DNA of 27,406 nucleotides from a virus. Made by a program: the position numbers and the translations under genes. The stretch spans positions 1 to 27,406 of the IMG/VR virus record IMGVR_UViG_3300009537_000140. One strand, 5' to 3'. Positions 1 to 21,116 of this stretch are shown one piece after another. The notes below the pieces were generated by a model, which was not told where the DNA came from, did no database searches, and saw only the letters and a program-made list of their open reading frames with translations. Position 1 is the stretch's first letter. Each line of letters opens with the position of its first letter.

Positions 1-166
1 CCCAGGCCTGCTACCGGGCTCCCAGGCCTGCTACCGGGCTCCCAGGCCTGCTACCGGGCTCCCAGGCCTGCTACCGGGCTCCCAGGCCTGCTACCGGGCC
101 ACGAGGCCTGCTACCGGGCTCCCAGGCCTGCTACCGGGCTCCCAGGCCTGCTACCGGGCTCCCAGG
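1..166. repeat. 20-bp tandem repeat array (about 8 copies)
   Basis: Eight head-to-tail copies of the 20-mer CCCAGGCCTGCTACCGGGCT fill positions 1-160, with a six-base partial copy after them. Units are identical except at the junction of units five and six, where T100 is replaced by C and the sixth unit begins ACG instead of CCC. Each unit contains the 8-bp palindrome CAGGCCTG. The array touches the window edge, so its true length is unknown. A 20-bp period is not a multiple of three, so it is unlikely to be a protein repeat. There are no spacers, so it is not CRISPR. Its role is unknown. Confidence 0.95.
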
Positions 167-455
167 GCGCTGTATATCGGTCCGCGCAAAACGGGCCCCC
201 GGGAAAGGACCATGCCAGCTTTTCCGGCATGGTTGTATATCAGACCCTGCGAGACGCGAAAACCGTGCCAGCCGAAAACTGCGACCCGACAGGCGAGTGA
301 TATACGGGGTGCTATACCATGGGGCTGAGCGCAAGTGACTGAACGCAAAGGACTTAGAGGGGGGGGGACCCCTAGGAAATCTGAGCGCCTCCGGCGCAGG
401 CGGTAGTAAATTTACCAGAATTTTTCAGAAAAACCTCTCCCAATGGCCAGACCAC
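167..455. other. Non-coding stretch with inverted repeats and GATATAC boxes
   Basis: I see no convincing gene here. Visible structure: a 7-bp stem CCATGCC/GGCATGG (210-216 with 226-232); three copies of GATATAC (minus strand at 172-178 and 234-240, plus strand at 299-305); a run of nine G at 359-367; a 5-bp stem GCGCC/GGCGC at 385-397; and AT-rich sequence around 407-435 that contains the palindrome TAAATTTA and a TTTTT/AAAAA pair. It lies beyond the 3' end of the leftward gene block, so a terminator would be expected, but no stem with a proper U-tract is clear. Confidence 0.5.
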
Positions 456-885: not shown

Positions 886-2022
886 TCATGACCCGTCATT
901 GCCACTGGCCGCCTCGGTGAAGGACGTGATGAAGGCCGCTCCGAGCTGGGGTACGATGGCATTGCCCCAGCCTCTCAGCCGCCCCACGTCGCCGGGTACC
1001 CTTGCAGCCAACGGGAATGATCCTGGTTCAACTGGACGCCATCGGGGACCTCGAGGGTCGTGACAGAGGACCCAGTCGCAGTTGGCCCAGTGGCCGTGGT
1101 CGCTTGCAAGCTGAGACTGGTCAGGATGACGCCGAGCTTCTTGCCGTTCGCTACCGTTGCCGCCTGCCGCGGTAGCTGGTCCGTCCTCGACCTCACTGAA
1201 CCGTCCTTGTTGATCGCAACAGTCGCCATCCCCGGAGTGTCTTTGTGGTCGCGGGCTGCTGGCGTTGCCCACCCGGCCACGGCCATCGTCGCCGCATCCG
1301 TCAACGTCACGCCGTATTTGCCCACCTTGCTCCCCGGCAGCCTCCTCGCCGTGGCGTTCCGGTGACTGCCGGCGTCGTTCGCGCACGGCGTTGGCCAACC
1401 GGTCGCCACTGTCAGCGCTGCCGCCTGACTCAAGTCTTCCGGTGCCCCTTTCCGCTCGACCTCTCGATGGCTCCCCTCTATGGTGCGGGCGTTCTTCGCC
1501 CCGTCCCCCGCCCTGCTCGTCGGCCAACCGACCGCCAAAGAACAATCGCTGACGAACATGGGGCGCGCTAACGCTCGCAGCGCACAGATCGGCGGCCCCA
1601 AAGCCATATCCCATCTCTTCCATCTCAGCACGTACAGCGGAGAGCCACGCCCTTCCAAGCGGGCTCGCAACCTGCTCTCCAAAGACCGTTGCAGGTCGGC
1701 ACTTGGCGATGAGGCCTCTCCAATCGGGCCACAAATGTCTGTCGTCATCCTTTCCTGCTCCTCTCCCTGCGACACTGAATGGCTGGCATGGACAGCTTCC
1801 CGTCCACAGCCCTACGACATCGGTCATCCCCGCCAGCGCCAGTGCTAATGGCCAGCCGCCGATTCCCGCGAAGAAATGGCACTGGGAGAAGGGTTCGACC
1901 TCCTCGGGGTCCACGTCGCGGATGTCTCGCCTGTCCACCCACCCTTGTGGCAACTGACCGTTGTCGATGAGCCTCTCCAACCAGTCGGCGGCGAACGGGT
2001 CGTTTTCGTTGTAGTAGACCAT
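886..2022 (-). CDS. C5 cytosine DNA methyltransferase (phage type)
   Basis: Transfers a methyl group from S-adenosylmethionine to cytosine C5 in DNA; in phages this usually protects against host restriction. The family motifs are in order: motif I FAGIGGW (residues 51-57, SAM binding), motif IV with the catalytic Cys in GSCPCQPFS (PCQ at 78-80), FGEQV at 114-118 in place of the ENV motif, the motif VIII-like SAPHVRQRLFF, and motif X GNAIVPQ near residue 353. The N-terminus YYNENDPFAADWL is typical of a phage subgroup, which supports the ATG at 2022 rather than the GTG at 2034. The middle (roughly residues 160-310) is low-complexity and rich in Gly, Arg and Glu, exactly where a second frame is open (see 975-1748). 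Of 40 codons read by hand over 1560-1441, 24 end in G or C in this frame, against 31 of 39 in the other. Confidence 0.9.
   Translation of the reverse strand: MVYYNENDPFAADWLERLIDNGQLPQGWVDRRDIRDVDPEEVEPFSQCHFFAGIGGWPLALALAGMTDVVGLWTGSCPCQPFSVAGRGAGKDDDRHLWPDWRGLIAKCRPATVFGEQVASPLGRAWLSAVRAEMEEMGYGFGAADLCAASVSAPHVRQRLFFGGRLADEQGGGRGEERPHHRGEPSRGRAERGTGRLESGGSADSGDRLANAVRERRRQSPERHGEEAAGEQGGQIRRDVDGCGDDGRGRVGNASSPRPQRHSGDGDCCDQQGRFSEVEDGPATAAGGNGSERQEARRHPDQSQLASDHGHWANCDWVLCHDPRGPRWRPVEPGSFPLAARVPGDVGRLRGWGNAIVPQLGAAFITSFTEAASGNDGS
975..1748 (-). CDS. Nested gene: WPTP-repeat protein inside the methyltransferase gene
   Basis: A 257-aa open frame in the +1 frame of the methyltransferase gene and wholly inside it. 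Its product is not random. It has SSPSADLQRSLESRLRARL near the N-terminus, then a Trp-Lys-Arg-Trp segment, PPICALRALA, three GW[PA]T-type repeats (GWPTS, GWPTP, GWATPAARDHKDTPG), and a C-terminal LNQDHSRWLQGYPATWGG. From memory this is the architecture of a widespread phage protein group often found with or annotated as cytosine methylase; its function is not known to me. The ATG at 1748 is preceded by a very purine-rich site (GGAGAGGAGCAGGAAAGG), and G/C at third codon positions is higher here than in the methylase frame over 1441-1560. A GTG at 1775 is an alternative start. It could instead be a conserved shadow frame. Confidence 0.55.
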   Translation of the reverse strand: MTTDICGPIGEASSPSADLQRSLESRLRARLEGRGSPLYVLRWKRWDMALGPPICALRALARPMFVSDCSLAVGWPTSRAGDGAKNARTIEGSHREVERKGAPEDLSQAAALTVATGWPTPCANDAGSHRNATARRLPGSKVGKYGVTLTDAATMAVAGWATPAARDHKDTPGMATVAINKDGSVRSRTDQLPRQAATVANGKKLGVILTSLSLQATTATGPTATGSSVTTLEVPDGVQLNQDHSRWLQGYPATWGG

Positions 2023-2052
2023 ACTACCAATCACGACCCGTCGTCATGGCCG

Positions 2053-3928: not shown

Positions 3929-4564
3929 TCAGCCGCCCGCGTTGCGGTGGAAATCAATCCTCCAGGACTCGCCGTACCCGGGGTGCGGCTCGGTGGCGTG
4001 GACCGCAGCGACAGGGACCCAGGAACCAGAGTCGAGGTTCTTACGGAAGACGTTCCACCCGCTGGGGTCGATACGCATCATCGCTAGGGAGAGGGCGAGT
4101 GCGTCGGGAAAGCCGAAAGCCGAGGCGGCGGTGTAGCCACTGGCTGCGCCGCAGTACGGGTTGCCGTTGTAGTCGTCGCTTGCCCGGGATAGGTCGTAGC
4201 GGAGTCGAGGGCAATGCCTGGAGGCAGAGGCAGCGACGTGAATGGTGGGGACGGCTGGAGTCGAACCAGCTACCGGCTGGATATCAGCCAGCTGCTCTGA
4301 CCGTTGAGCTACGTCCCCGTGACACCCTACGCCCCCGTGGCACCCTTCGCCCCCGTAACACCCTACGTCCCCGTGACGCTCCTCCTCTCCGTGACACTCT
4401 TCGTCTCCGTGACACTCGACGTCCCCAAGCCACTCTACCTCCCGTGGGTCCCCGTGACACTCGACGTCGACGAACTCCCACGAGAAGTACTCGGTCAGCT
4501 GCCGCATGATGTCAGCGCCGTGTCCGGTGCGCCGGGCGATGGTCTCAATGGTTAGTGGAGTCAT
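3929..4564 (-). CDS. Open frame with CHGD repeats, interrupted in frame by tRNA-Ile
   Basis: This 211-codon frame has three parts. Residues 1-35 are an ordinary N-terminus (MTPLTIETIARRTGHGADI). Residues 35-82 carry six-residue repeats of the type x-C-H-G-D-x. Residues 83-107 are the translation of the tRNA-Ile gene. Residues 108-211 again look like normal protein, with high G/C at third positions and a sequence such as 'SAFGFPDALALSLAMMRIDPSGWNVF'. The start at 4564 has GAGGGAAG upstream and overlaps the HTH gene by 20 bases. No ATG, GTG or TTG occurs after the tRNA until about residue 162, so the distal half has no obvious start of its own. Either the frame is read through the tRNA, or a gene was split by it. 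Confidence 0.4.
   Translation of the reverse strand: MTPLTIETIARRTGHGADIMRQLTEYFSWEFVDVECHGDPREVEWLGDVECHGDEECHGEEERHGDVGCYGGEGCHGGVGCHGDVAQRSEQLADIQPVAGSTPAVPTIHVAASASRHCPRLRYDLSRASDDYNGNPYCGAASGYTAASAFGFPDALALSLAMMRIDPSGWNVFRKNLDSGSWVPVAAVHATEPHPGYGESWRIDFHRNAGG
4243..4318 (-). tRNA. tRNA-Ile (anticodon GAT)
   Basis: A complete 76-nt cloverleaf with encoded CCA. The acceptor GGGGACG pairs with CGTCCCC; the D stem is GCTC/GAGC; the anticodon stem GCTGG/CCAGC encloses loop CTGATAT, giving anticodon GAT; the T arm is GCTGG-TTCGACT-CCAGC; the discriminator is A. All stems are fully paired. It reads ATC isoleucine codons. Its 5' end lies within the last unit of an 18-bp repeat array. Confidence 0.95.
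4312..4464. repeat. Degenerate 18-bp tandem repeats abutting tRNA-Ile
   Basis: About eight imperfect units with an 18-bp period, consensus on the plus strand CGTCCCCGTGACACCCTA. Clear unit starts are 4312, 4330, 4348, 4366, 4384, 4402 and 4420; the array then decays and one more recognisable CCCCGTGACACTCGA follows at 4450. On the minus strand they encode the hexapeptide ECHGDV and its variants. The first unit (4312) begins with the bases that are the 5' acceptor strand of tRNA-Ile. Confidence 0.85.
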
Positions 4565-4817
4565 ACTCTTCCCTCATCATCCTTCGGTGGAAATGGAGCG
4601 CCTTGTCAGTATCAGACATGTTGTAAATCGCTTCGACGGAGACGCCGGTCAACTCAGCCAGCTTTGTGGCGACCGGTGCGCTCACCTGAAGCGCGCCGGC
4701 GGCCATGCGGGAGAGGTACCCCGCGCTCACTCCCAGTGCCGCTGCGGCGGCCCTCTGGGTGCCGAAGCACTCCCGCAGGAAGCGGGCCAGGTAGTTCCTT
4801 GTCGGTCTCCCGCTCAT
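4545..4817 (-). CDS. Helix-turn-helix DNA-binding protein (Cro/YdaS-like, 90 aa)
   Basis: A small DNA-binding protein, probably a transcription regulator. Residues 18-42, around TQRAAAAALGVSAGYLSRMAA, fit a helix-turn-helix of the Cro/C1/YdaS type (recognition helix AGYLSRMAAG), followed by 'VATKLAELTGVSVEAIYN', the usual third and fourth helices. The start at 4817 forms a TGATG junction with the stop of the upstream gene. An N-terminally extended frame to 4997 exists, but its extra 60 residues are only a shadow of that gene. The likely operator is unknown; palindromes at 5347-5501, upstream of this gene cluster, are candidates. Confidence 0.75.
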   Translation of the reverse strand: MSGRPTRNYLARFLRECFGTQRAAAAALGVSAGYLSRMAAGALQVSAPVATKLAELTGVSVEAIYNMSDTDKALHFHRRMMREEYDSTNH

Positions 4818-5125
4818 CACTCTCTCGCCGGGAGGTTCTCCGGGTTGCCCGGTCCCGCCATCCGGGAGTACTCTTCGACGGAGGGAACCGGGCAGGCGGG
4901 GCTGCGTGTCACCTCGGCAGAGCTGTCGCGGTACGGCCACAGGAAGCACGCCTCGACTTCGCAGGTGATCACGGCACTCCTCGATCCGCCCTGGCAAGCC
5001 CGGCAGAAGAGCCTGATTGCGTCGGTCGGCCGTCTCTCGTGGTCTACCCTGGACGCAGTCCCCGGGTACCGCTTCCGCACGTAGTCGATGACGTGCGCCT
5101 CGGGGTCGAACTCCCTCTCCCTCAT
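4817..5125 (-). CDS. Cys-rich small phage protein (C4 motif, 102 aa)
   Basis: Contains C41-x2-C44 and C55-x4-C60 in the pattern 'AIRLFC-RAC-QGGSRSAVITC-EVEAC-FLWPYR'. From memory this matches a common family of small phage proteins with 'IRA.CL.C.GG...V..C....CPL.PYR', presumed to bind zinc; the function is unknown. The ATG at 5125 makes an ATGA overlap with the upstream gene; a GTG at 5134 is an alternative. The C-terminal 35 residues are Pro/Glu-rich and probably disordered. Confidence 0.75.
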   Translation of the reverse strand: MREREFDPEAHVIDYVRKRYPGTASRVDHERRPTDAIRLFCRACQGGSRSAVITCEVEACFLWPYRDSSAEVTRSPACPVPSVEEYSRMAGPGNPENLPARE

Positions 5126-5346
5126 CTCTTCCACCTCTCGTCCTGCGTCATCCGCCAGAGGTCACCGGCCTCCTCTGCCCACGCGGCTACCGACCCGGCT
5201 ACCCCAGCGAACAAACCAAAGACGATCGCCAGCGGCAGCAGTAGGGCCATGCAGATCGGGACCAGGACCGGGAACCTGACCATCAACTTCTCGTATCCAT
5301 TCAAGGTGTCGAAGAACGGCGGGTACCTGTTTTCAGGGTGTGACAT
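5122..5346 (-). CDS. Small membrane protein (74 aa)
   Basis: One long hydrophobic stretch (about residues 24-55, VRFPVLVPICMALLLPLAIVF and on through GVAGSVAAW) predicts one or two membrane segments. The N-terminus is polar and the C-terminus is charged (EEAGDLWRMTQDERWKR). I do not recognise a family. It is the first gene after a 155-base control-like gap and is coupled to the Cys-rich gene by ATGA. A holin role is possible but unsupported by neighbours. Confidence 0.65.
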   Translation of the reverse strand: MSHPENRYPPFFDTLNGYEKLMVRFPVLVPICMALLLPLAIVFGLFAGVAGSVAAWAEEAGDLWRMTQDERWKR

Positions 5347-5501
5347 TTCGCCTCACTCGGTTTCGCGTTGGTTAGGGACCTTCGGTCTTTAAGAGTAAGA
5401 AACAGACTAAGAGAAGATCGGAGTTAACTCCACACCGGCGGTTGTATCGTTCCGACAGGAACAACAAAGTTTTCCGGCGGATTATTCCCGGATTCGAAAG
5501 T
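5347..5501 (-). promoter_or_regulatory. Intergenic gap with two palindromes, possible control region
   Basis: This 155-base gap in the leftward block separates the nuclease gene from a membrane protein/Cys-rich/HTH cluster. It contains the perfect 12-bp palindrome GGAGTTAACTCC (5420-5431) and the inverted repeat GTTCC-GACA-GGAAC (5449-5462). It is less GC-rich than its surroundings. A short stem GACC-TTC-GGTC followed by TTT lies near 5377-5390. No convincing -35/-10 pair was found, so operator or promoter function is inference. Confidence 0.35.
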
Positions 5502-5930
5502 TTATTCACACCAACCTTGCCTCGTCCCGCCAAAGTACTCTCTCGCAAGGCCTTGTGAGATGAGTTTTTCTTTCACTTGGGTGCCGTCGACGGACATTTC
5601 CGCCATCAGCCGGAAGAACTTCCCGCGCTGGACTCTCAAAAGCCGGATGTTTGACGCGTCGGAGATGAGGCGCTCTACGAAGACCTTCGCTTCGATTGCC
5701 TTGTCCTTCTCGTGTAGGCACCTGCCTCTGATTTCCGGCGTATCGAAGCCGAGGAGCCGCACGGGCATCGGCGAGAAGAGCGGCGGAACCCCGGGCAACT
5801 CGACGAAGATCGTGTCGCCGTCATAGACGTAGACAACATCCGCTGGAGTCAGGTCGAGGCAGCCGCCGCGTTCCAGCTCAGAGGCCGGCGGGCAGAGAAA
5901 CGAGAGGAGGAGGCTGATTGCTGCGATCAT
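5502..5930 (-). CDS. Staphylococcal nuclease-like (SNase) protein
   Basis: A predicted Ca2+-dependent nuclease of the SNase/thermonuclease fold (142 aa). The key residues are in place: D37 and D39 in YDGDT, R58 in VRLLGFDTPE with D63, T64 and E66 (equivalents of R35, D40, T41, E43), and R107 in KFFRLMAEM (R87 equivalent). The N-terminal 18 residues (MIAAISLLLSFLCPPAS) form a hydrophobic leader, so the enzyme may be exported or anchored. The ATG is joined to the upstream exonuclease gene by ATGA. Neighbours suggest a nucleic-acid processing group with the exonuclease and the RuvC-like gene. Confidence 0.88.
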   Translation of the reverse strand: MIAAISLLLSFLCPPASELERGGCLDLTPADVVYVYDGDTIFVELPGVPPLFSPMPVRLLGFDTPEIRGRCLHEKDKAIEAKVFVERLISDASNIRLLRVQRGKFFRLMAEMSVDGTQVKEKLISQGLAREYFGGTRQGWCE

Positions 5931-6448
5931 TTCAGCACGAAGTTGCCGTCGGAGTCAAGAAGGCAGGCCACCAGATCGGCCTGGAAGATGGCGTCATCGA
6001 GGGCGTTGTGGTGCGTCCCTTGCCGCTTGATCGGGGCGGGCTTTTTAAGGGCGAATAGCGTCCTCAGGTCCCTCGATACGCGGTAGGACACCTCGGTCAT
6101 GCCCAGCGCCCGTAGAGCGTTCTGGAAGATCACAAAATCGAAGGTAGCATGGGACCAGACCTCGTCGGCACCCTCCAGGAAGGCCCTTGCCTTCCTCATC
6201 GCCACCACGAGCGGCTGCCGGTCCTTGCGGAGCCCCGCCCGCGCCTCATCGCTCTGCGCAAGCCACCACATTACGGTCCTAGCGTCGACGGAGAGGCCGG
6301 CCCTCATGCTGCTTTCGAGGCTCACGTTGATAAGCGTGGCGGTGCTACCGAAGGCACCGAGTTGATCGAAGTCAACGAGGCCAATCTGGATGATGGCGCC
6401 GGTCGGCCCGGTACCCATCGTTTCTAGGTCGATCATCACGCGGCGCAT
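5927..6448 (-). CDS. DnaQ-like 3'-5' exonuclease (Rv2179c-like/DUF5051)
   Basis: A DEDD-superfamily 3'-5' exonuclease (173 aa). Exo I is D7-x-E9 in MIDLETMGTGPTGAIIQIG, Exo II is D104 in SHATFDFVIF, and Exo III is H147...D152 in THHNALDDAIFQ. The signature MIDLETMG-x-GP-x-AIIQIG is typical of the exoribonuclease group related to mycobacterial Rv2179c that is common in phages. The start at 6448 is set by GAGGAG eight bases upstream; a longer frame to 6511 would include non-conserved sequence. It is coupled by ATGA to the SNase-like gene. Confidence 0.88.
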   Translation of the reverse strand: MRRVMIDLETMGTGPTGAIIQIGLVDFDQLGAFGSTATLINVSLESSMRAGLSVDARTVMWWLAQSDEARAGLRKDRQPLVVAMRKARAFLEGADEVWSHATFDFVIFQNALRALGMTEVSYRVSRDLRTLFALKKPAPIKRQGTHHNALDDAIFQADLVACLLDSDGNFVLK

Positions 6449-6497
6449 TGCTCGCTTCTCCTCGGATGCCGGCACTTGTCGCCCTGCACGTGAGCCA

Positions 6498-6920
6498 TCA
6501 GAAGGGGACACACGCGGTCTCCCCTGAGCGACCGCGAGGACCAGGCCGTCGCTCTCGCCGACTTGGAAGCGATCGATTCGCCGCCCCTCGCGTCGCGTCG
6601 CCAGTAATCGCCCTAATGAATGCGGTCATCTCGCCTCGCTTGCTATTGTGCCGGTCCTTCCAGAAGCGCCGCGCCTCACCCACCAAAAGGTACGGATTAC
6701 TCCCACGCGGAATCCCCTGCACGACGCAGCGAGTGGTGCCGTGATAGCAGCTATACGCCACAATCACAGGGCCGGGGAGGGCCGCGCCTAGCGTCACTGC
6801 GGCCGCCTCTTCGTCGGAGTTTAGCGGCCTGAATGCGTCCGCCGTGATCGCCGCTCTGGGGAGGCGAAGGTCAGTGGCCCAGGAGAGGGCGTCGGTGAAA
6901 ATCTCTCTGTCGCTAACCAT
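6498..6920 (-). CDS. Protein of unknown function (140 aa)
   Basis: No family is recognised. The N-terminal two thirds look folded ('AAVTLGAALPGPVIVAYSCYHGTTRCVVQGIPRGSNPYLLVGEARRFWKD'), and the last 30 residues are basic and likely disordered (SLPSRRERRPGPRGRSG). The start at 6920 forms a TGATG junction with the RuvC-like gene and has GGAGG upstream. A GTG three bases earlier is also possible. Confidence 0.7.
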   Translation of the reverse strand: MVSDREIFTDALSWATDLRLPRAAITADAFRPLNSDEEAAAVTLGAALPGPVIVAYSCYHGTTRCVVQGIPRGSNPYLLVGEARRFWKDRHNSKRGEMTAFIRAITGDATRGAANRSLPSRRERRPGPRGRSGETACVPF

Positions 6921-7486
6921 CACTCACCTCCCAGTCGAACTGTTTCAGCAATCCACAAAGCGTCAGCAATCGCTCCATCCTTGACTCTGTTGAGCCCAAC
7001 ATCCGGCCACCTAAGGCGGGCCGCTTCGAGAACCGCCGTCTTCCTGGCTTTTCTCTTCTTGGCGGCCATAGCGGCCTCCGCCGCCTTCTTGCGGGCCGGC
7101 AAGAACCCATCTGTGTTCACTTTCCACCCCCGCCACGGCGTATCAACGCCGACCAGGGCCACAGCGTGCCACTCGCGCGGCCGGACCCTGACAACGTCCA
7201 TCCCGAGGGCCTCTGCAACCCCCCTACAGACGCCCACGCTCTCACCGAATGCAAAGGTCGAGGCAACGCCTTGGCCGGGCATCGAGTGGACCGCTTCGAT
7301 GGCGCAGACCGGAGGCTCGGACACCGCTCCGGCGCCCGCTGCCACATGCACCAGGGACAGCACAGAGAGCAGGGCTCCCGCGTCAGAAGTGTCCACTAGG
7401 GAGGCGAACACGCAGCCGCAACCGTGGAGGAGAGCGATGGCCCCGGTCTTGCCAGGGTCGATCCCGATTATCGCCTGAATGGCCAC
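6920..7486 (-). CDS. RuvC-like Holliday junction resolvase
   Basis: A predicted RuvC-type endonuclease that would resolve branched DNA before packaging. Acidic residues of the RNase H-like fold are visible: D9 in IIGIDPGKTGAIALL, E in CAIEAVHSMPG, and the final pair in KDGAIADALWIAE. 'GVASTFAFGESVGVCRGVAEALG' matches the second core segment of the family. A central basic stretch (ARKKAAEAAMAAKKRKARK) is unusual and may help DNA binding. The frame is open back to 7621, but that part is the tRNA-Met gene. I choose GTG at 7486 because AAGGA lies about 11 bases upstream; GTG at 7513 is possible. Confidence 0.85.
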   Translation of the reverse strand: MAIQAIIGIDPGKTGAIALLHGCGCVFASLVDTSDAGALLSVLSLVHVAAGAGAVSEPPVCAIEAVHSMPGQGVASTFAFGESVGVCRGVAEALGMDVVRVRPREWHAVALVGVDTPWRGWKVNTDGFLPARKKAAEAAMAAKKRKARKTAVLEAARLRWPDVGLNRVKDGAIADALWIAETVRLGGE

Positions 7487-7563
7487 CGGTTTGAAGTCCT
7501 TGCTAGAATTCACTCGCCGAAGATACCGGTTTCCAGCGCGGCAGTCAAGCGTCTCCACTTTGG

Positions 7564-7633
7564 TGGTTGCGGGCCCAGGAGTCGAACCTGGCGCAATCGG
7601 GTTATGAGCCCGAAGCGGCACCTTGCGCCCGCA
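7564..7633 (-). tRNA. tRNA-Met (anticodon CAT) with reduced D arm
   Basis: The acceptor TGCGGGC pairs fully with GCCCGCA, followed by A and encoded CCA. The T arm is CCAGG-TTCGACT-CCTGG, and the anticodon stem TCGGG/CCCGA encloses CTCATAA (anticodon CAT). Only 13 bases separate the acceptor and anticodon stems, so the D arm can form at most two pairs (A11-T20, G12-C19), giving a 70-nt molecule. It lies between the vWA gene and the RuvC-like gene. CAT could also specify Ile if C34 is lysidylated. Confidence 0.8.
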
Positions 7634-7641
7634 GGGGCCGG

Positions 7642-8274
7642 CTATGACATCGCGTCGCGATCCTCGGCGTTAAAGCTAAGTGACGCAGCGTCCCCTGTAG
7701 AGCGGTACGTAGAGACCTTCTGACTGATGACGCTGTACGTGCCAATTATGCTCTGGCCGGCGAAGCCGCTCGTCGTCGCTGCCGACACCCCGAGGTTGAC
7801 GCCAACGTCGAACGCATCGACAGTGGCGCCCAAGTAAATCACCGGCCAGCCCTCGTCGTCACACCCGGCAAGGAGACCCTTGACTCCGGCGAGGTCAATC
7901 TCCCTACTTGAGTTCTCGTGCCCGTCAGTCATGATCACGAGGAGCGCCTTGGTCCCCTCGCTGGCGGCTGACATGCGTTCCCTGAGGACGGCAACCCCGC
8001 GTGCGATCGCGTCTAAGAGGGCAGTTGTTCCGCGGGGGACGAAGGACTTCGCGGTCATGTACGGCAGCTCACCCACCGGCGTCCCCGTGCAAACTACGGT
8101 ATGCTCGTGGTCGAATAGAAGAAGCGATAGTAGGCACTCTCCCGGTTCGTCCCGCTGGTCCTGGAGGAACTGATTGAACCCCCCGATCGCATCGCCCTTG
8201 ATCTGGGCCATCGATCCTGATCGGTCGAGGACGAATACGATCTCGACTGCCTTGCCCTTGTTCTTCTCGCCCAT
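7642..8274 (-). CDS. von Willebrand factor A domain protein
   Basis: A vWA fold of 210 aa with a complete metal-ion-dependent adhesion site: D17-R-S19-G-S21 (DRSGSM), T83 or T84 in VPRGTTALLDAI and D117 in VIMTDGHENS. Such domains bind protein partners through Mg2+. The start has an ideal site (AGGAGGT, seven bases). There is no signal peptide, so it acts in the cytoplasm or virion. vWA proteins in phages are uncharacterised for the most part; a partner (often an AAA+ ATPase in bacteria) is not visible in this window. Confidence 0.9.
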   Translation of the reverse strand: MGEKNKGKAVEIVFVLDRSGSMAQIKGDAIGGFNQFLQDQRDEPGECLLSLLLFDHEHTVVCTGTPVGELPYMTAKSFVPRGTTALLDAIARGVAVLRERMSAASEGTKALLVIMTDGHENSSREIDLAGVKGLLAGCDDEGWPVIYLGATVDAFDVGVNLGVSAATTSGFAGQSIIGTYSVISQKVSTYRSTGDAASLSFNAEDRDAMS

Positions 8275-8276
8275 TT

Positions 8277-8504
8277 CTAGTTACCTCCTGTGGTCATCCT
8301 GCGTCCGCCGCTCCGTAGCGGGCGTCGCCTGGCGGCCTCGAACGCCTCAGCTACGTCATCCAGGCCGAGACCGTGAAGTAATCCGCAGAGGATTCTGTCA
8401 GCCTTGTCGCGCTCTCGCGTCTTCCGAATAAACGCCAGCTTCCTGATCGCGTCATCGATGATCTCTGAGTGCTCGTCGAGGAACGGCTGCGCCGAGACAC
8501 TCAT
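8277..8504 (-). CDS. Small helical protein of unknown function (75 aa)
   Basis: It begins MSVSAQPFLDEHSEIIDDAIRKLAF and continues with charged helices ('RERDKADRILCGLLHGLGLDDVAEAFEAARRR'). I do not recognise a family. The ATG at 8504 overlaps the stop of the SleB-like gene as ATGA; the longer frame to 8681 is a shadow of that gene. The stop codon is embedded in the binding site region of the vWA gene, so the two are probably co-translated. Confidence 0.65.
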   Translation of the reverse strand: MSVSAQPFLDEHSEIIDDAIRKLAFIRKTRERDKADRILCGLLHGLGLDDVAEAFEAARRRPLRSGGRRMTTGGN

Positions 8505-9037
8505 GACTCTGCCCTCGCGGACCCTGCGCGCGGCATGATCGGCTCCCCTGGCAACGCAGGCCACCACCCAGACTTGGGGTGCCCCTCTCGCACAATCTCT
8601 CCGAACCTGAATCGCGCAGGGTCTATCTCTGCCACACTGAAGATCCGAACCTTGTCCCAGTTCCACTTCGGATCGGACCACTTCGGAACCATTGACTGAG
8701 GCGACCAGAACAGGATGACAGTAGGCGGCAGCGCCCTTCCGTACTTGTCTGACAACTCCCTCAGCGCAAGGGCGTCGAAGTGCCCCATTAAGTCCCCGAG
8801 ATGTTCAAGGCACCACTCGCTAGCGCCGGTGATGGTTTTTCGGGCCTCGGTTGGCATCTCATTGAACGCGGAAAACTGCCACTTCTTTGTGATTTCCACC
8901 CAGATCCGACTCGGGTCGATTGCCCTGTTCATGATCGCCGCCATGACAAAGCGCGCCTCATACCACCTGTCCGTCTCCGTCCTGGCCCCCAGGGACAGCC
9001 ACTGGGTTGGCGTGAGGGGAACTATTCTTTCGCCCAA
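8501..9037 (-). CDS. SleB-like cell wall hydrolase (candidate endolysin)
   Basis: The N-terminal half resembles SleB/cell wall hydrolase 2 domains: 'RWYEARFVMAAIMNRAIDPSRIW...KKWQFSAFNE', with E27 as the candidate catalytic Glu and QFSAF as the family signature, then 'PTVILFWSPQSMVPKW' near the end of the domain. It would cleave peptidoglycan glycan strands during lysis. The start is TTG at 9037, preceded by AGGGGAG at eight bases, inside the end of the preceding membrane-protein gene (16-base overlap). There is no signal peptide. The order coiled-coil protein, membrane protein, hydrolase fits a lysis cassette. Similarity is moderate. Confidence 0.6.
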   Translation of the reverse strand: MGERIVPLTPTQWLSLGARTETDRWYEARFVMAAIMNRAIDPSRIWVEITKKWQFSAFNEMPTEARKTITGASEWCLEHLGDLMGHFDALALRELSDKYGRALPPTVILFWSPQSMVPKWSDPKWNWDKVRIFSVAEIDPARFRFGEIVREGHPKSGWWPALPGEPIMPRAGSARAES

Positions 9038-9261
9038 GTGAAGGTCTCCCCTGCCAGCGCTGCGATGAACATTGCCGAGCGATGCCCCACGCCGGCCACC
9101 TCTCCCACTGCCCTGTTGAATGGGCGCCCAACGAATCCCGGCATCCATAGACACAGAGACTGGAGCACCCGGAGCGCGTTTCCCGCCGTTACGGCCACCG
9201 TCATGGCGACCATGAGGAAGGCGATGACGAGTGGAGCGAACGTACGCTTGGCAAACGTCAT
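9022..9261 (-). CDS. Small membrane protein, candidate holin (79 aa)
   Basis: The N-terminus MTFAKRTF is followed by a clear membrane segment (about residues 9-30, PLVIAFLMVAMTVAVTAG); two weaker hydrophobic stretches follow. A positively charged start and a position directly before the SleB-like hydrolase suggest a holin or spanin-like lysis protein; no family is recognised. The ATG is joined to the upstream stop as TGATG. Confidence 0.6.
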   Translation of the reverse strand: MTFAKRTFAPLVIAFLMVAMTVAVTAGNALRVLQSLCLWMPGFVGRPFNRAVGEVAGVGHRSAMFIAALAGETFTWAKE

Positions 9262-9505: not shown

Positions 9506-10075
9506 TCAGATATCGTCAACCCAGGTCGGGCTTAGTGGAGACTCTCCCAGGACGGCGACTTGGATGTTACCGCCTGTTCCGGAGTTCATCTGGCCGGCGA
9601 TGTGAACAGCCATGATGGCGATCTCCTCAACCGAAGCCTCACTTGTCGCAACCAGGGCCGCAGCCGCCCCGGAGGCGTACTGGCCACCGCTCCCGACAGC
9701 GGCTGAGGACTCAATTGGAAATACAGTGAAATCGGACCCGATGACCCAGGCGCCAGACGTGGTGAGATATACGAGCTCCTCGCCAGAGAAGGGAATCACG
9801 TCGTCTAGTGAGCCTAGGTTGTAGCCATTCTCCTCCAGCAACAGTTTGAATGACGCGGCGAACTCAAGGGCGGTTGCCGGTACGTATCCAGCGTCGGCTC
9901 TTCTCTGGAGAATCTGGAGCGATCGGGCGTGCCCGGAGAGCCCGACGATCACCTCGTCGCCGAATCGGACAATCTTCGAGGCGGCCTCGTGGACAATGGT
10001 GTCTCCGTAGCTGACACGGCCGTCCGATGCTATCGCATGCCTGGCCCCGTCAGTCACTACCGCAATCGTTGTCAA
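9506..10075 (-). CDS. Proteasome/HslV-like Ntn-hydrolase
   Basis: A predicted N-terminal nucleophile peptidase (189 aa). After loss of the initiator Met the protein starts TTIAVVTDG, as HslV starts TTI. D17 (in ASDGR) and K33 (in EAASKIVRF) fall at exactly the proteasome/HslV numbering, and GSGGQYASGAAAAL near residue 127 matches the HslV GSGG-x-YA-x-AA-x-AL segment with its Ser. It probably assembles as rings. The start is TTG at 10075, with GGAGG five bases upstream, inside the previous gene (26-base overlap). No HslU-type ATPase is visible. Its target could be phage or host proteins. Confidence 0.88.
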   Translation of the reverse strand: MTTIAVVTDGARHAIASDGRVSYGDTIVHEAASKIVRFGDEVIVGLSGHARSLQILQRRADAGYVPATALEFAASFKLLLEENGYNLGSLDDVIPFSGEELVYLTTSGAWVIGSDFTVFPIESSAAVGSGGQYASGAAAALVATSEASVEEIAIMAVHIAGQMNSGTGGNIQVAVLGESPLSPTWVDDI

Positions 10076-10331
10076 GTTGCCTCCAGTTGTGCTCGACTCT
10101 TTCCCATGCGAACCCGAAGATCAAAGGAATCCTCCAGCCGGAGACTACTACTTTCATCAGGTGTGGTGTAACCTCCCTCCCTATCTCCCTTTGTCTGGCC
10201 ACCCAGATGTCGTATTTAATGGCCGCCTGGATCGATCTTTCGAAGACCGCCACGGCACTTGGCTTCTCTCCGGGGTCACCACTGAGGTCCCGCGGTGTTA
10301 CGTCCTCCGTTTTGATCTCTAGCCAGGACAA
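10050..10331 (-). CDS. Protein of unknown function (93 aa)
   Basis: No family is recognised. The middle is helical ('VAVFERSIQAAIKYDIWVARQREIGREV') and is followed by 'PHLMKVVVSGWRIPLIFGFAWERVEHNW', a likely beta-alpha unit rich in Trp. The start is TTG at 10331 because GGAGGGG lies seven bases upstream, just past the stop of the preceding gene; an ATG at 10385 would lie deep inside that gene. It overlaps the HslV-like start. Confidence 0.65.
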   Translation of the reverse strand: MSWLEIKTEDVTPRDLSGDPGEKPSAVAVFERSIQAAIKYDIWVARQREIGREVTPHLMKVVVSGWRIPLIFGFAWERVEHNWRQLDNDCGSD

Positions 10332-10335
10332 CCGA

Positions 10336-10680
10336 CTACCCCTCCATACTGGACTTTCTCGCCTGGGCAGCTTTTTCCTTTGCATCTCTCTTGGCCAGTT
10401 CCCGAGCCTCTTCGAGTTGGCGGTCGACGTAGAAGAGGGCCCCCCGCGGCATTTCTACGGTCCCGACACCGGAGACAGACACGATAACCTTCGACCGCCC
10501 GACCACAACCACTTGCCCTATTTTGGCAGCCATCTCGGGACTTTTTCCGCCCAACTTCGTGACCCAAGGGATCGCCACGGTCAGCCCGACGAGATACCTA
10601 CTAGGGGGGAGGTCGTGCCCGCTCACAAAGCCTTTGGGGCTTGTATACTGCTCTGCCAGCTGGTCAAACCTGTTCGCCAT
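10336..10680 (-). CDS. Protein of unknown function, first gene of leftward block (114 aa)
   Basis: The product begins MANRFDQLAEQY. Its middle is beta-rich ('AKIGQVVVVGRSKVIVSVSGVGTVEMPRGALFYV') and its C-terminus is a charged helix (EEARELAKRDAKEKAAQARK). I recognise no family. The ATG at 10680 is favoured over one at 10683 because GAGG is then five bases away. It is the promoter-proximal gene, about 30 bases from the expected transcription start. Confidence 0.7.
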   Translation of the reverse strand: MANRFDQLAEQYTSPKGFVSGHDLPPSRYLVGLTVAIPWVTKLGGKSPEMAAKIGQVVVVGRSKVIVSVSGVGTVEMPRGALFYVDRQLEEARELAKRDAKEKAAQARKSSMEG

Positions 10681-10718
10681 CATCACCTCGCCTGGGTCAC
10701 AACGCGGCCACCAGGACG

Positions 10719-10746
10719 ACTGTAGCATTCAGCGGGTGGGTGTCAA
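10719..10746 (-). promoter_or_regulatory. Sigma-70-type promoter for the leftward block
   Basis: On the minus strand a perfect -35 box TTGACA (10746-10741) is followed after 16 bases by TACAGT (10724-10719; four of six matches to TATAAT). The predicted start near 10712 leaves a leader of about 30 bases before the ATG at 10680. It lies in the divergent gap between the two gene blocks. I saw no equally good rightward promoter in this gap. Confidence 0.6.
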
Positions 10747-10788
10747 CTCGGTACCCAGGACAACCAAGAAAAGGCAGGGTTAGAGAAT

Positions 10789-11142
10789 ATGGGTCAAGAA
10801 GTCAGCATCCCCATAAAGTGGGGACAGATTCTAGCTGCAATCGTAATCGCAACGGCGGGGTTTGGGATCTCCCAGGTGGGTGACGTTGTCCTTGGGAAGT
10901 CCGGGACAGACTACCAGGTTGCAGCACTTGCCGCCCAGGTCTCAGACATGAGAGGTGAGATCAACGCCGCCCTCCGCGAGATTGTCGCTTCCCAGGTCGA
11001 CCATCGTATCAACCACCCGGACAAAGCACTCGCGGAAAGAATCACGGTGCTGGAGGGATCTCAGCTCACCGCCACAGAGGCCGCAAAGATGGAGAGGCGC
11101 CTGAGCGATGAAATCAAGAGCCTCTGTGCCAACTGCAGGTAG
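10789..11142 (+). CDS. Membrane-anchored coiled-coil protein (117 aa)
   Basis: Residues 11-30 (WGQILAAIVIATAGFGISQV) form one membrane segment. The rest is a long helix ('VAALAAQVSDMRGEINAALREIV...ERITVLEGSQLTATEAAKMERRLSDEIKSL') ending in C-A-N-C. This layout resembles spanin or holin-associated proteins, but no family is recognised. CAGGG lies nine to ten bases before the ATG. It is the first rightward gene. Confidence 0.65.
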   Translation: MGQEVSIPIKWGQILAAIVIATAGFGISQVGDVVLGKSGTDYQVAALAAQVSDMRGEINAALREIVASQVDHRINHPDKALAERITVLEGSQLTATEAAKMERRLSDEIKSLCANCR

Positions 11143-11151
11143 GGCTACTTG

Positions 11152-11160
11152 TGATACAAT
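11152..11160 (+). promoter_or_regulatory. Extended -10 promoter element before the terminase genes
   Basis: TGATACAAT combines a TGn extension with TACAAT (five of six matches to TATAAT). Only nine bases separate it from the GTG of the small terminase gene, so transcription would begin at or next to the start codon. No matching -35 box is visible at 16-18 bases. Confidence 0.45.
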
Positions 11161-11169
11161 CCTTCGCCT

Positions 11170-11691
11170 GTGGCGCGAGGTAGAAAAAAAGACATTTTCC
11201 AAGGCCTGGAAAAGCTGGAAGAATCGTCCACGATCCTTCGGCTAAGAAGAGACGGGTCCACTTACGCTGAGATAGCCGAAAAGGTCGGCCTTTCGCCGTC
11301 TACGGTATACGCCAGGGTAACGCGCCTGATTAGTAAGGCTAGCCAGCTTGTTGCTACCGACGCTTACGAAACTATTCAGAGGCACCTGGACACTACTGGC
11401 GCGATAATTGACGCCCAGTTCAACGCCGCCATGGCCGGGGACACCAAGGCCGCAGAAATCATTCTCAAGGCGCTTAGCCGGGAAGCCAGGCTTCTCGGTC
11501 TGGACGCTTCCGAACGGGCCTCGATCGGTCTCAGCTATACCGAGATCATCAACAAGCTCCGTCAGATCGGGCGAAAAGACCTCCTTGAACGGATCGTGAA
11601 GGGAGAGGACCCGTCGAAAGTGATCTCGGGCGAGATCGAGATCTGGGCGAGCGCCAGCCCGGTGACGCCGGAGGCTGAGGATGAACCCTAG
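11170..11691 (+). CDS. Terminase small subunit (likely)
   Basis: Recognises phage DNA and hands it to the large terminase. Residues 22-52 ('TILRLRRDGSTYAEIAEKVGLSPSTVYARVTRLI') form a helix-turn-helix, followed by a helical part ('DAQFNAAMAGDTKAAEIILKALSREARLLGLDASERA') typical of small terminases, and an acidic tail. The position directly before TerL with an 11-base overlap supports this. The GTG at 11170 is the only usable start: an in-frame TGA lies at 11152, and no ATG follows until deep in the gene. No ribosome binding site precedes it. The gene at 14691 is a second HTH candidate. Confidence 0.75.
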   Translation: MARGRKKDIFQGLEKLEESSTILRLRRDGSTYAEIAEKVGLSPSTVYARVTRLISKASQLVATDAYETIQRHLDTTGAIIDAQFNAAMAGDTKAAEIILKALSREARLLGLDASERASIGLSYTEIINKLRQIGRKDLLERIVKGEDPSKVISGEIEIWASASPVTPEAEDEP

Positions 11692-13174
11692 GGCTGAGGC
11701 AGCTGCGATGGCTGCCCAGGCACTCTACGACCTGGACCAACGGCCCGATCAGGCGCGGTCGTTCCGCGACTACGTCAGGCACGTTTTTCCGGACTATGTC
11801 TGGCATAAACACTGCGAGGTACTGGCGGAGTGGGGACAGAAGCTGGTCGACAGGGAGATCTCTCGCCTGTTCATCGCGGCCCCGCCGCAGTTCGGAAAGT
11901 CACAGTTCGTGCGGATGATCTTGGGTTACCACCTGGAGCGGTTTCCGTCCTTTCGCGTCGGCCTTGCCTCCTACAACTCAGACCTAGCTAACGAAATCTC
12001 CCTGGACGCGCGAGGGTACTACGAGTCTGCCGGTGGCGTCTTAATGGAGGATGCCCAGGCGATTCGGAACTGGAGAACCCCAGAGGGCGGTGGCCTCTGG
12101 GCAACCGGTGTCGCGGGAGGGCAGACTGGAAAGCCGGCTTCGATGCTGGTGATCGACGACCCCGTGAAGAATGACCTCGAAGGGGCGTCACCGACCGTCC
12201 AGAGGAAGCACCAGAACTGGTACAGGTCGAGTTGGATTAATCGTTGGAACCGCCACGGTCCACCGCTCGCTCAGATTCACGTGCAGACGAGGTGGGACGA
12301 GAACGACCTTGGCGGGTGGCTTCTACAGCGGGCCGCAGAGGACGCAGCGCAGGCCTGGACGTGCGTCATCCTCCCGGAGATCTACGACTCTCCGGAGGCT
12401 CCCAGAAACTGTTATCTGGTGCCCGACTGGAGGTTGCCTGGTGAGCCGCTCTGCCCCGCCATTACCCCGATTGAGAAGTCTCTCTCTACGAAGGGCATCG
12501 TTGGCGAATATTACTGGTCAGCTCTCCACCAGCAGCAACCGAGGCCAGCGACCGGCGGAGGGATGTTTAAGCGCTGGTGGTTCCACCGGGTGGCTCCGTA
12601 CGTGGACGGCGAAAATCGTCAAGGGATGTGTCCGCCCCTAAATGAGATGGTATCTATGTGCCGCGCCTGGGACCTGGGCGCCACAGCCGACGGTGGGGAC
12701 CACACGGCCGGCGTGCTTATGGGGAGGCATAAGGATGGCAACATCTTTTGGATAGATACGGTTAGGAAACAGCTCTCCCCAGCCGGAGTCGACGAATTAA
12801 TCCTGCGTACCGCCGAAGAAGACGGTAAAGCGGTGACCATCTCGGTCCCTCAGGACCCTGGCGCGGCCGGAAAGAGCGAGGTAGCTTCCAAGTTGAGGCT
12901 ACTCAGAGGGTACCGTGTAACAGTGTCAAGGCCTACCGGCAGCAAGATGACGAGGGCGAGACCGCTCGCTTCTGCCGCTGAGCCTTCCGCAGACGGGGTA
13001 GGCGGCAGGGTTTTCCTTGTGCAGGGAGACTGGAACGAAATGGCGCTTTCTGAGTTGCACTCTTTCGACGGCCTTGACGGGCACTCGGATGACATCGTCG
13101 ATGCGGCGGCTGATTGTTTCAACCACATCGAGGGCAGAAAGCTCCTCAGGCACTTGCGGAGGCTACCCTGGTAA
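11681..13174 (+). CDS. Terminase large subunit
   Basis: The packaging motor ATPase and nuclease (497 aa). The ATPase half has Walker A in FIAAPPQFGKSQ (about residues 64-75) and Walker B in MLVIDDPVKND (about 158). The nuclease half begins with CRAWDLGATADGGDHT (about 327), with the first acidic residue, and ends with DDIVDAAADC (about 470) carrying the last. The start overlaps the TerS stop. The length is normal for the family. Confidence 0.95.
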   Translation: MNPRAEAAAMAAQALYDLDQRPDQARSFRDYVRHVFPDYVWHKHCEVLAEWGQKLVDREISRLFIAAPPQFGKSQFVRMILGYHLERFPSFRVGLASYNSDLANEISLDARGYYESAGGVLMEDAQAIRNWRTPEGGGLWATGVAGGQTGKPASMLVIDDPVKNDLEGASPTVQRKHQNWYRSSWINRWNRHGPPLAQIHVQTRWDENDLGGWLLQRAAEDAAQAWTCVILPEIYDSPEAPRNCYLVPDWRLPGEPLCPAITPIEKSLSTKGIVGEYYWSALHQQQPRPATGGGMFKRWWFHRVAPYVDGENRQGMCPPLNEMVSMCRAWDLGATADGGDHTAGVLMGRHKDGNIFWIDTVRKQLSPAGVDELILRTAEEDGKAVTISVPQDPGAAGKSEVASKLRLLRGYRVTVSRPTGSKMTRARPLASAAEPSADGVGGRVFLVQGDWNEMALSELHSFDGLDGHSDDIVDAAADCFNHIEGRKLLRHLRRLPW

Positions 13175-14704
13175 ATGGCTGAAGAAAAGAAGTGGGATGT
13201 ATCGACTCCCTCGGCTAGGTATTCCGAGTTAGAGTCCAAGCGCAAGATCCACAGGGACCTCCTCGGGGGGACCTCGTCAATGCGGGAAGCCGGCGAGGAG
13301 TGGCTGCCGCGTGAGTCGCAGGAGGACGACGACGACTACCGGAAAAGGCTTGCCAGAAGCGTTTTGTACAACGGTTACAAGAGGACGATCGACTTCCTTG
13401 CTGGAAAAGTCTTCAGAAAGCCTCTCCGACTGAGCCCAACTGCCCCTGACTTCTACTCCCCGATCGCTGACGATATCGACTTGACTGGCAGGAACATGCA
13501 CCGTTTCTGTTGGGACCTCTTCAAGAGCGGGTTGTCCAACGGAATCTCGTTTATCTTCGTGGATCTGCACACAAACGGTGCGCCTCCAAGGGAAACGGTC
13601 TCGGGGCGGAGGATCGTAACCTCTGCCGGATCTTCCTCGGCTCGCCCCTACTGGACGATGATTGACCCGTCCAGGATCTTCCGTTTCGTTTTCGGTTCTA
13701 TCGGTTCCCCTCGGCTTCTGCGTGTCCATATTACGTTTGACGAGGTCGTCAGCGGCGGCGAGGGCGGGCATTGGGCAGAGTCAACTGAGCAGGCGATCAG
13801 GGTCTACTATGCCTCCGGTGTCGAGCGGTCCGACGGCGCCGTGTCGGATGTCTGCTCCTACGAGGTGTGGAGGTTCCTTGCTGAGCGCGGCGAAAAGGCG
13901 CGATGGGTGTTGACGGAGAGCCATGAGATGCCCCCGATCAAGGACATCCCGTTGGTCCCCTTTTATGCGAACTACTCTGGGTACATGGATGCCGAGCCGG
14001 AGTTCGAGGACCTCGCTTGGCTCCAGTGGTCGCACTGGTACAAGAGAAGTGACTTCGACAACACGATGCACTACTCGGCTGGTGTCCCCACGCTCGCGCT
14101 GCCCGGATTCCAGGATCTCGAAGCTTCCGGAATTGCCATGGGCGCGATGCGGACCATCCTCACCCCCAGCGAGAACTCGCGACCGTACTGGCTCGAAGTG
14201 TCAGGTAATGGCTTACGGCTCCTCAAGGGGGATATCACTGAGCTTGAGACAAGGATCCTGCTCCTCGGCTTGCAGCCGCTGATGAGCAAGCCGTCGAGCG
14301 GCCAGCTCGTCACTGCAACCGAGCGTCTGATCGACCAAGAAAACGTGGACAACCAACTTGAAGCATACGCCTTGTCGTTGAAAGATACGATCGACTTGGC
14401 AATGGAGTTCAGCTCTCGATGGATGTCCCGCGCCGACTGGCCGGGGACATCGGCAATCGAGATGCAGGACGATTACAGCTTCAATCCTAACTCCGAAGTT
14501 GATAAGCAGTTCCTGCTCCAGATGAGAGGCGCGAGGGATCTCTCTAGGGAGGGTTTGCTTAGTATCGCAAAGAAGTTTGGAATCATCCCCGACGAGTTCG
14601 ATGTTGACGACGACATGAAGCGGATTCTTGCTGAATCCGAGCCCGCCACGGAGGAGACGGCGCCCACGCCCGCCACCGACGGCGGTGACGGTGGCATGGA
14701 GTAG
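13175..14704 (+). CDS. Portal protein (DUF4055-like)
   Basis: Forms the dodecameric ring through which DNA enters the capsid (509 aa). 'DDDYRKRLARSVLYNGYKRTIDFLAGKVFRKPLRL' near residues 50-85 and 'LFKSGLSNGISFIFVD' match the DUF4055 portal group. 'LEVSGNGLRLLKGDITELETRILLLGLQPL' lies in the conserved later part. The ATG follows the TerL stop immediately (TAAATG). The C-terminus is acidic and Thr/Pro-rich and probably disordered. Position between terminase and scaffold fits. Confidence 0.88.
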   Translation: MAEEKKWDVSTPSARYSELESKRKIHRDLLGGTSSMREAGEEWLPRESQEDDDDYRKRLARSVLYNGYKRTIDFLAGKVFRKPLRLSPTAPDFYSPIADDIDLTGRNMHRFCWDLFKSGLSNGISFIFVDLHTNGAPPRETVSGRRIVTSAGSSSARPYWTMIDPSRIFRFVFGSIGSPRLLRVHITFDEVVSGGEGGHWAESTEQAIRVYYASGVERSDGAVSDVCSYEVWRFLAERGEKARWVLTESHEMPPIKDIPLVPFYANYSGYMDAEPEFEDLAWLQWSHWYKRSDFDNTMHYSAGVPTLALPGFQDLEASGIAMGAMRTILTPSENSRPYWLEVSGNGLRLLKGDITELETRILLLGLQPLMSKPSSGQLVTATERLIDQENVDNQLEAYALSLKDTIDLAMEFSSRWMSRADWPGTSAIEMQDDYSFNPNSEVDKQFLLQMRGARDLSREGLLSIAKKFGIIPDEFDVDDDMKRILAESEPATEETAPTPATDGGDGGME

Positions 14705-14915
14705 GAACCTGGGCATCCCATCAATCCACAAGTCGTACGACTGGAAAAGGCCGTTTCTTGAGTGGCTGAGACTCAACGGGACAGTCAAAATCTCATGTGA
14801 GTTGGCAAGGATTTCGCGTGAGGGGGCCTACCGCGCAAGAAAGCGGGACGAGGAGTTCGCGGCCGCATGGGATCAGGCCCTGTCGCACTTTCGCCGGGTT
14901 ACACGCGGAAGCTAG
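14691..14915 (+). CDS. Small HTH protein resembling terminase small-subunit N-domains (74 aa)
   Basis: The product contains 'KRPFLEWLRLNGTVKISCELARISREGAYRARKRDEEFAAAWDQAL', a homeodomain-like helix-turn-helix with the pattern (F-L-x2-L-x3-G-x-V ... A-R-x-S-R-x-x-x-Y-R-x-R ... D-x-x-F-A-x-A-W) seen in phage TerS-like DNA-binding proteins. It starts at GTG 14691 inside the portal stop region (14-base overlap). Its place after the portal is unusual for a TerS. It may be an accessory packaging factor or regulator. Confidence 0.6.
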   Translation: MAWSRNLGIPSIHKSYDWKRPFLEWLRLNGTVKISCELARISREGAYRARKRDEEFAAAWDQALSHFRRVTRGS

Positions 14916-15069
14916 GCGCAGGTTAGCTTACTAGCGGTGCGCGGCGTGTGTCCGCGCCTTGAATGCAGACCACTTGCGCGGTTTCAGTTGTCGACAGAGT
15001 CGATGATTGATAGCGAGATGCTCGTGGCTGTCGGTCTGCTGCGCGAGATGCGCTAAAGGAGTCAGTTCT
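14916..15069 (+). other. Intergenic gap before scaffold, with hairpin
   Basis: This 154-base gap has a stem GCGCGG/CCGCGC (14939-14944 with 14952-14957, seven-base loop) without a U-tract. A 17-codon frame from ATG 15003 to TAA 15056 ends exactly at the ribosome binding site of the scaffold gene (TAAAGGAG); it could be a leader peptide but has no good start site of its own. Nothing else was seen. Confidence 0.35.
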
Positions 15070-15879: not shown

Positions 15880-15885
15880 TACAAA

Positions 15886-16869: not shown

Positions 16870-16878
16870 TCTGACTGA

Positions 16879-16895
16879 CGCCGCTGGGCGCGGCG
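16879..16895 (+). terminator. GC hairpin after the major capsid gene
   Basis: The stem CGCCGC/GCGGCG (six pairs) has the five-base loop TGGGC, ten bases after the capsid stop. It lacks a U-tract, so it may act as an attenuator or mRNA-stabilising end rather than a full terminator. The next gene starts 62 bases later. Confidence 0.4.
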
Positions 16896-16956
16896 GGGTG
16901 GCTTTGCCTCCTTGGTCTACTCCGTCGCGCCCAGGGTTCTTTCTGAAGGGGGCCTC

Positions 16957-18438: not shown

Positions 18439-18439
18439 G

Positions 18440-19856: not shown

Positions 19857-19886
19857 AACGGGATACCCAGAAAATCGGGGTGCTCA

Positions 19887-20069: not shown

Positions 20070-20163
20070 CCCCCTGGGTCACACGTTATCGTCAGTGTCT
20101 CGGTAGAGTTGCCTAGGCCGGATCCCTGTGCGGTTCTCCGGTGGCGACCTTTGGAGGATATGA

Positions 20164-21106: not shown

Positions 21107-21116
21107 GAGCTAGTAA

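Follow-up and report, generated by a model that had tools for sequence, protein, structure and literature searches.

A putative split phage C5-cytosine DNA methyltransferase with its candidate recognition subunit encoded in the +1 frame of the catalytic gene

The window analysed here, 27,406 nucleotides making up positions 1 to 27,406 of the IMG/VR virus record IMGVR_UViG_3300009537_000140, carries on its minus strand a 382-codon C5-cytosine methyltransferase open reading frame (2034-886), hereafter alpha, and a second, 257-codon frame (1748-975, minus strand), hereafter beta, which lies in the +1 frame of alpha and is entirely enclosed by it, as a preliminary description of the sequence had claimed. 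In window 3929-9154 and 10027-27404, terminase, portal, major head and tape measure genes are found on the plus strand, and minus-strand genes for an exonuclease and a Holliday junction resolvase occupy the same arm as the methyltransferase. The left contig end, window 1-170, holds tandem 20-bp repeats (cccaggcctgctaccgggct, about 8 copies). The features of the overlapping pair are the following.

886 to 2034, minus strand: alpha subunit (putative) with motifs I-VIII and X, starting at GTG 2034 or ATG 2022 (PF00145, phrog_363, family alignment A1)
975 to 1748, minus strand: beta subunit (putative), nested +1-frame open reading frame of 257 aa (phrog_1008, phrog_31772; homologues aligned in A3/A4)
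1774 to 1806, minus strand: alpha motif IV, WTGSCPCQPFS, with the catalytic Cys (invariant columns in A1)
1540 to 1566, minus strand: alpha motif VIII, APHVRQRLF (A1), beyond which selection moves to the beta frame
1749 to 1771, minus strand: purine-rich ribosome-binding region GCAGGGAGAGGAGCAGGAAAGG preceding the beta start (from the sequence and from the clustering of homologue starts and Shine-Dalgarno (SD) sites)
1551 to 1748, minus strand: N-terminal element of beta, over alpha motifs V-VIII, a predicted helix and two strands with weaker beta-frame constraint
1398 to 1526, minus strand: candidate recognition cassette 1 of beta, WPTSRAGDGAKNARTIEGSHREVERKGAPEDLSQAAALTVATG, common to a cassette of locus L158, with DNA differences at beta position 3
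1272 to 1397, minus strand: candidate recognition cassette 2 of beta, WPTPCANDAGSHRNATARRLPGSKVGKYGVTLTDAATMAVAG, from cassette clustering, in which no close cassette relative was found
1158 to 1271, minus strand: candidate recognition cassette 3 of beta, WATPAARDHKDTPGMATVAINKDGSVRSRTDQLPRQAA, with cassette relatives in other loci and DNA differences at beta position 3
984 to 1031, minus strand: motif-IX-like segment of beta, LNQDHSRWLQGYPATW, with invariant L, W-L, G and W columns in A4 and beta-frame constraint
928 to 972, minus strand: alpha motif X, GWGNAIVPQLGAAFI, in the alpha frame past the beta stop codon, with GNAI invariant in A1
1032 to 1539, minus strand: low-complexity 'passenger' linker of alpha, open yet unconserved in the alpha frame

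The motifs that mark a C5-cytosine DNA methyltransferase, namely I, IV with its PCQ, VI, VIII and X, are all present in alpha, FAGIGG, PCQPFS, GEQV, QRL and GNAIVPQ being invariant or nearly so in A1, and phrog_363 matches along alpha's length (7e-68). The Pfam family PF00145 matches with 9.6e-12 and covers only aa 78-173, that is motifs IV-VIII, ending after VIII, and alpha does not hold a target-recognition domain (TRD) and motif IX in one polypeptide with I-VIII, as it drifts across VIII-IX and across motif IX. Beta is matched by phrog_1008 (9e-17) and also by phrog_31772, and all three PHROG families are named 'DNA methyltransferase', while being listed as independent proteins with shared DNA or a subunit role unstated in the record. 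The statement that two protein groups recurrent in phages are one DNA read in two frames is borne out by phrog_363 and phrog_1008, both of which are annotated as coding sequences in phage PhiXhv-5.

An open frame inside a GC-rich gene may of course arise by chance, and the possibility that the methylase alone is real, the WPTP frame being a by-product of its codon usage, can point to a high GC content that reduces stop density, to the conservation of alpha and to the window gene itself, where shuffling the alpha codons gives 2.9 expected +1-frame stops in the overlap and a probability of finding none of P = 0.015, which is modest and not extreme. Across homologues the evidence is overwhelming. 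In the sample of 160 loci fetched with the alpha profile, together with phage records, no stop interrupts the +1 frame from motif IV to X in 141 of 145 loci, and not one of the 145 has an open +2 frame; in three of the four loci with an interrupted +1 frame the stop falls beyond motif IX. When alpha codons were shuffled synonymously within each gene (118 loci), 129.5 stops were expected in the +1 frame over motifs IV-VIII and 123.0 over motifs VIII-IX, about 250 together, and none was observed in either, whereas the +2 control met expectation (377 against 388 in IV-VIII, 709 against 700 in VIII-IX); being related, the 118 loci do not count as so many independent trials, but relatedness is equal in the +2 control. 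Conversely, shuffling beta codons in VIII-IX leads to an expectation of 386 alpha-frame stops where 0 are observed, and alpha therefore stays readable through this stretch as well. Stops in the nested frame of homologues, which the preliminary description had named as an observation that would speak against it, are thus absent.

The frame in which selection acts can be read from the positions of substitutions, since the third codon position of alpha is the second of beta and the first of alpha is the third of beta, so that opposite patterns are expected from the two frames. Among 40 disjoint pairs of loci at 85-98.5% identity, aligned as plain DNA, divergence at alpha positions 1/2/3 amounts to 0.025/0.009/0.196 before the overlap and 0.084/0.031/0.271 after the beta stop, the third position being fastest in both, and to 0.165/0.072/0.072 between motifs VIII and IX, where the first position is fastest. 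Estimates of omega from 27-75 disjoint pairs per identity class follow the same course, with alpha at 0.04-0.29 ahead of motif IV and past the beta stop (0.17-0.19 in the latter), alpha at 0.23-0.41, beta at 1.16-1.37 and the third frame at 1.69-2.15 in IV-VIII, and alpha at 1.34-1.41, beta at 0.31-0.46 and the third frame at 1.2-1.6 in VIII-IX. A finer profile has beta constraint setting in at motif IV and peaking past motif VIII, with beta at 0.24-0.26 against alpha at 0.88-1.28 in motif IX; selection on the N-terminal half of beta (IV-VIII) is weak, its omega of 1.2-1.4 being yet lower than that of the third frame. A distant C5-methyltransferase subfamily has a matching frame-switch pattern, as judged from few pairs. 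A whole-gene substitution test of the window is uninformative because most of its cassettes are non-homologous to those of its relatives, and the comparison was therefore made between matched cassettes, mainly cassettes 1 and 3, which differ from their relatives at 146/360, 67/362 and 51/361 of alpha positions 1, 2 and 3, the signature of beta coding.

Base composition had also been invoked for the nested frame, and it was among the numerical statements of the preliminary description that were checked, all of which held. In the stretch 1441-1560, beta position 3 (alpha position 1) has a GC of 0.775 and alpha position 3 one of 0.60, while it is alpha position 3 that is GC-rich ahead of the overlap and at motif X (0.73 each). 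Neutral substitution in the nested frame had likewise been named as a finding that would count against it, and changes in VIII-IX are instead synonymous in the beta frame. We conclude that dual coding is real, with both frames open and under selection, and that along the DNA selection acts on alpha over motifs I-VIII, on beta over the recognition region and motif IX, and on alpha again at motif X. Openness and selection in VIII-IX both agree with the proposal that the nested protein is conserved and sits at the target-recognition region of the methylase, with the refinement that alpha is only partly dual-constrained, its VIII-IX stretch being an open, freely drifting passenger.

Beta appears moreover to have a start site of its own. 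In the window its start is ATG 1748, with GTG 1775 as the alternative, and a start upstream of motif IV is impossible here because the beta frame is stopped at about 1812-1814. The strong purine-rich start site ascribed to beta is seen in GCAGGGAGAGGAGCAGGAAAGG directly before the ATG, and SD sites recur in homologues, where beta-frame starts cluster 2-4 codons ahead of the alpha RHLWP motif (145 loci; TTG at -4 in 72, ATG at -3 in 39, ATG at -2 in 28) and where SD matches of at least 4 bases precede 85 of 111 beta-frame starts as against 5 of 99 in a control frame. The start site and ribosome-binding site are thus conserved in most homologues, and start codons with strong SD sites coincide with the onset of beta-frame constraint; a start codon at the canonical position is however missing in 34 of the 145 loci, which counts against a separately translated subunit of a split enzyme. 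Taken with the stops and with substitutions that are silent for beta but not for alpha, the conserved starts make a mere by-product of methylase codon usage exceedingly improbable, and the alternative that one of the two protein groups is a shadow annotation of the other can be rejected for beta from motif VIII to IX on stops and selection, and weakly so for its N-terminal part.

The same starts bear on the notion of a programmed +1 frameshift near motif VIII, which would yield a fusion of alpha (I-VIII) to beta (TRD-IX) with no separately started beta. This is in line with selection switching frame right past motif VIII and with locus L076 (1710-2552), in which the alpha N-terminus and the beta TRD-IX lie in one frame joined at a G-run while motif X is in another frame, a join which may be a frameshift, a sequencing indel or phase variation. 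A shift at motif VIII does not, however, require the +1 frame to be stop-free in IV-VIII, as it is, nor start codons with SD sites to recur just past motif IV, and no shared slippery site was noticed on an unsystematic look. We therefore regard a programmed frameshift as very unlikely.

Beyond its N-terminal element, beta is made up of 1-5 cassettes of about 36 aa (median 36 aa) with a WPTP-like start, followed by a short conserved tail and LNPxHSRWLMGYPxxW. The window beta has three cassettes, and the three GW[PA]T repeats noted before (beta aa 74, 117 and 159) do lie over RLADE, RLANA and RVGNA of alpha, all in a single phase. Relatives of window cassette 3 were found in L175, L004, L240, L165, L104 and other loci, and clustering of 336 cassettes gave 142 clusters that recur at differing positions. 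Among 944 locus pairs with alpha identity above 75%, all cassettes are common to 6, some to 223 and none to 715, and the recognition region is therefore exchanged much faster than the catalytic frame. The cassettes are thus modular and swapped between phages. Such an arrangement of several exchangeable modules between VIII and IX, 1-5 per locus and in varied combinations, is that of multi-TRD enzymes, and it suggests that the cassettes are TRDs and would confer multispecificity, although no known TRD was found to resemble the WPTP cassettes.

At the C-terminal end of beta, LNPxHSRWLMGYP resembles motif IX of M.HhaI, LHPRECARVMGYP, both in its pattern and in lying between VIII and X, and its LxP..MG.P is under beta-frame constraint at the expected place; as profile searches returned no significant motif IX match, the putative assignment rests on order and pattern. 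Searches of Pfam and of PDB profiles with beta gave no match. Four rows from public phage records were left out of the alignment used for structure prediction. AlphaFold models of the window beta and of the compact homologue L224 are poor (pTM 0.29 and 0.28), the only confident part being an N-terminal helix and two strands (residues 11-60, pLDDT about 72-92) reproducible in both, and the best Foldseek matches in the PDB (Z 3.3-4.1, GnsA) are below a useful level and include no methyltransferase small domain. On such models we make no claim as to the fold of beta.

The occurrence of beta was followed from beta itself, with the motif-IX peptide and a beta profile as queries and with methyltransferases admitted that have PCQDIS as well as PCQPFS. 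In 151 of 153 resolvable loci beta lies in the +1 frame of a C5 methyltransferase and in the remaining 2 in the +2 frame, these being apparently broken; no free-standing or same-frame beta was found in the 153, and 7 more loci end at contig edges. The loci span several distinct C5-methyltransferase subfamilies. L009, considered as a free-standing WPTP protein, was rejected as such, since it overlaps another C5 methyltransferase in like manner: at L009:557-1697 a 378-aa WPTP-type open reading frame (MAWLYVPGL...) runs in the +1 frame over the full length of a methyltransferase of the NGLALCAGVG subfamily. The relaxed-specificity prophage methyltransferases of Paracoccus and Sinorhizobium, reported as proteins of about 700 aa, were judged to be outside the nested class.

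Several individual loci deviate in layout or annotation. In L280 (696-1761) alpha ends within the cassette region, and cassettes, motif IX and motif X all lie in the nested frame; together with L076 this suggests how frames can move. In L006, Komagataeibacter phage phiKX1, the RPVEP segment of alpha and its motif X are separated by an insertion of more than 100 residues, which lies beyond the beta end. At L247 (E. coli NZ_CP041110.1, 1933222-1934391) RefSeq calls an intact alpha two partial pseudogenes flanking the cassette region, while both frames are open in the DNA, and the doubled product name seen there recurs in nine E. coli genomes among the matches listed.

It could furthermore be that beta, though genuinely overprinted, serves something other than methylation, for instance anti-defence, and merely shares DNA with the methylase, and indeed no sequence or fold match ties beta to methyltransferases and the cassettes are unlike known TRDs. 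This seems very unlikely in view of the facts that beta always occurs with a C5 methyltransferase in resolvable loci, that alpha constraint is lost exactly at the canonical place of TRD and motif IX, leaving alpha without a recognition domain, that the C-terminal LxP..[LM]MG[YF]P of beta is found at the canonical place between VIII and X, and that the beta frame of L280 takes motif X too. Along the DNA the motifs keep their usual order (I-VIII, variable region, IX, X), yet the reading frame passes from alpha to beta and back to alpha. A split enzyme is the simplest account. We accordingly hold it to be highly probable that the two frames encode a split C5-cytosine DNA methyltransferase, one enzyme in which alpha would provide catalysis and beta recognition and motif IX. 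Alpha would then make the catalytic and AdoMet-binding domain (I-VIII) and the closing helix (X), bridged by a long unconstrained linker, and beta would be translated in the +1 frame from its own internal start just past motif IV on the same mRNA, and would supply in trans both motif IX and the target-recognition region, an array of WPTP cassettes each about 36 residues long. Together the two would form one enzyme for methylating phage DNA, whose target site or sites the cassettes would set. Translation of beta, the alpha-beta complex, its specificity and its activity are all predicted from sequence; on the evolutionary evidence it is probably the hidden beta protein that selects the sequence to be methylated, and the role is probably that of protecting phage DNA from host restriction.

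Comparable designs are known for parts of this arrangement. Multispecific phage C5 methyltransferases carry several short tandem recognition modules between VIII and IX; these are single polypeptides in one frame, whereas the modules here lie in a separate nested protein. Enzymes of this kind are those of the SPR and phi3T type (Trautner et al. 1996, cited in PMC12707154). In M.EcoHK31I the gene for the small polypeptide reportedly lies within the large one in another reading frame, with both polypeptides needed for activity, and the nesting of the small gene is the same in the window. In PMC3404938, M.EcoHK31I (YGGCCR; Lee, Kam & Shaw 1995, cited there) is described as having I-VIII and X in its larger polypeptide and IX in its smaller one, with the predicted TRD put in the larger subunit, and M.AquI (CYCGRG) as a C5 methyltransferase split past motif VIII into two polypeptides, the small subunit having IX and X. 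Compared by description only, the window resembles M.EcoHK31I in that alpha also has I-VIII and X, and would resemble it in the smaller polypeptide too if the motif-IX-like segment of beta is indeed motif IX, but it differs in that selection puts the recognition region in beta, as swappable cassettes, and in being a phage gene without a recognised partner endonuclease rather than part of a restriction-modification system. The layout differs from that of M.AquI in that motif X of the window stays in alpha past the beta stop and the small gene is nested; one relative, L280, shows an AquI-like layout. Relative to M.EcoHK31I, what appears to be new is that the region is organised as an array of cassettes, that this array lies in the beta frame and that the class extends widely across phages and prophages. 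A literature search, with most subscription journals outside its coverage, found no paper on the nested class, and specialists may know it.

We think it rather likely that these loci represent a very large class of C5 methyltransferases in phages and prophages that has gone largely unrecognised, in which a specificity gene nested in the +1 frame carries an array of cassettes, each about 36 residues long, the host frame remains open there only as a free linker, and phages change or add specificities by recombining cassettes readable in both frames. If this is true, a common phage anti-restriction enzyme is being misread in databases, where its specificity protein goes without annotation, bears the label 'hypothetical' or appears as a second 'DNA methyltransferase', and any specificity predicted from the alpha sequence would be meaningless. 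The pair would furthermore rank with the most widespread of the known long overlapping gene pairs on one strand, its two frames dividing selection between them unusually cleanly, and would be a source of small modular DNA-recognition cassettes. It would also offer a specific re-reading of M.EcoHK31I, whose TRD has so far been put in the large subunit.
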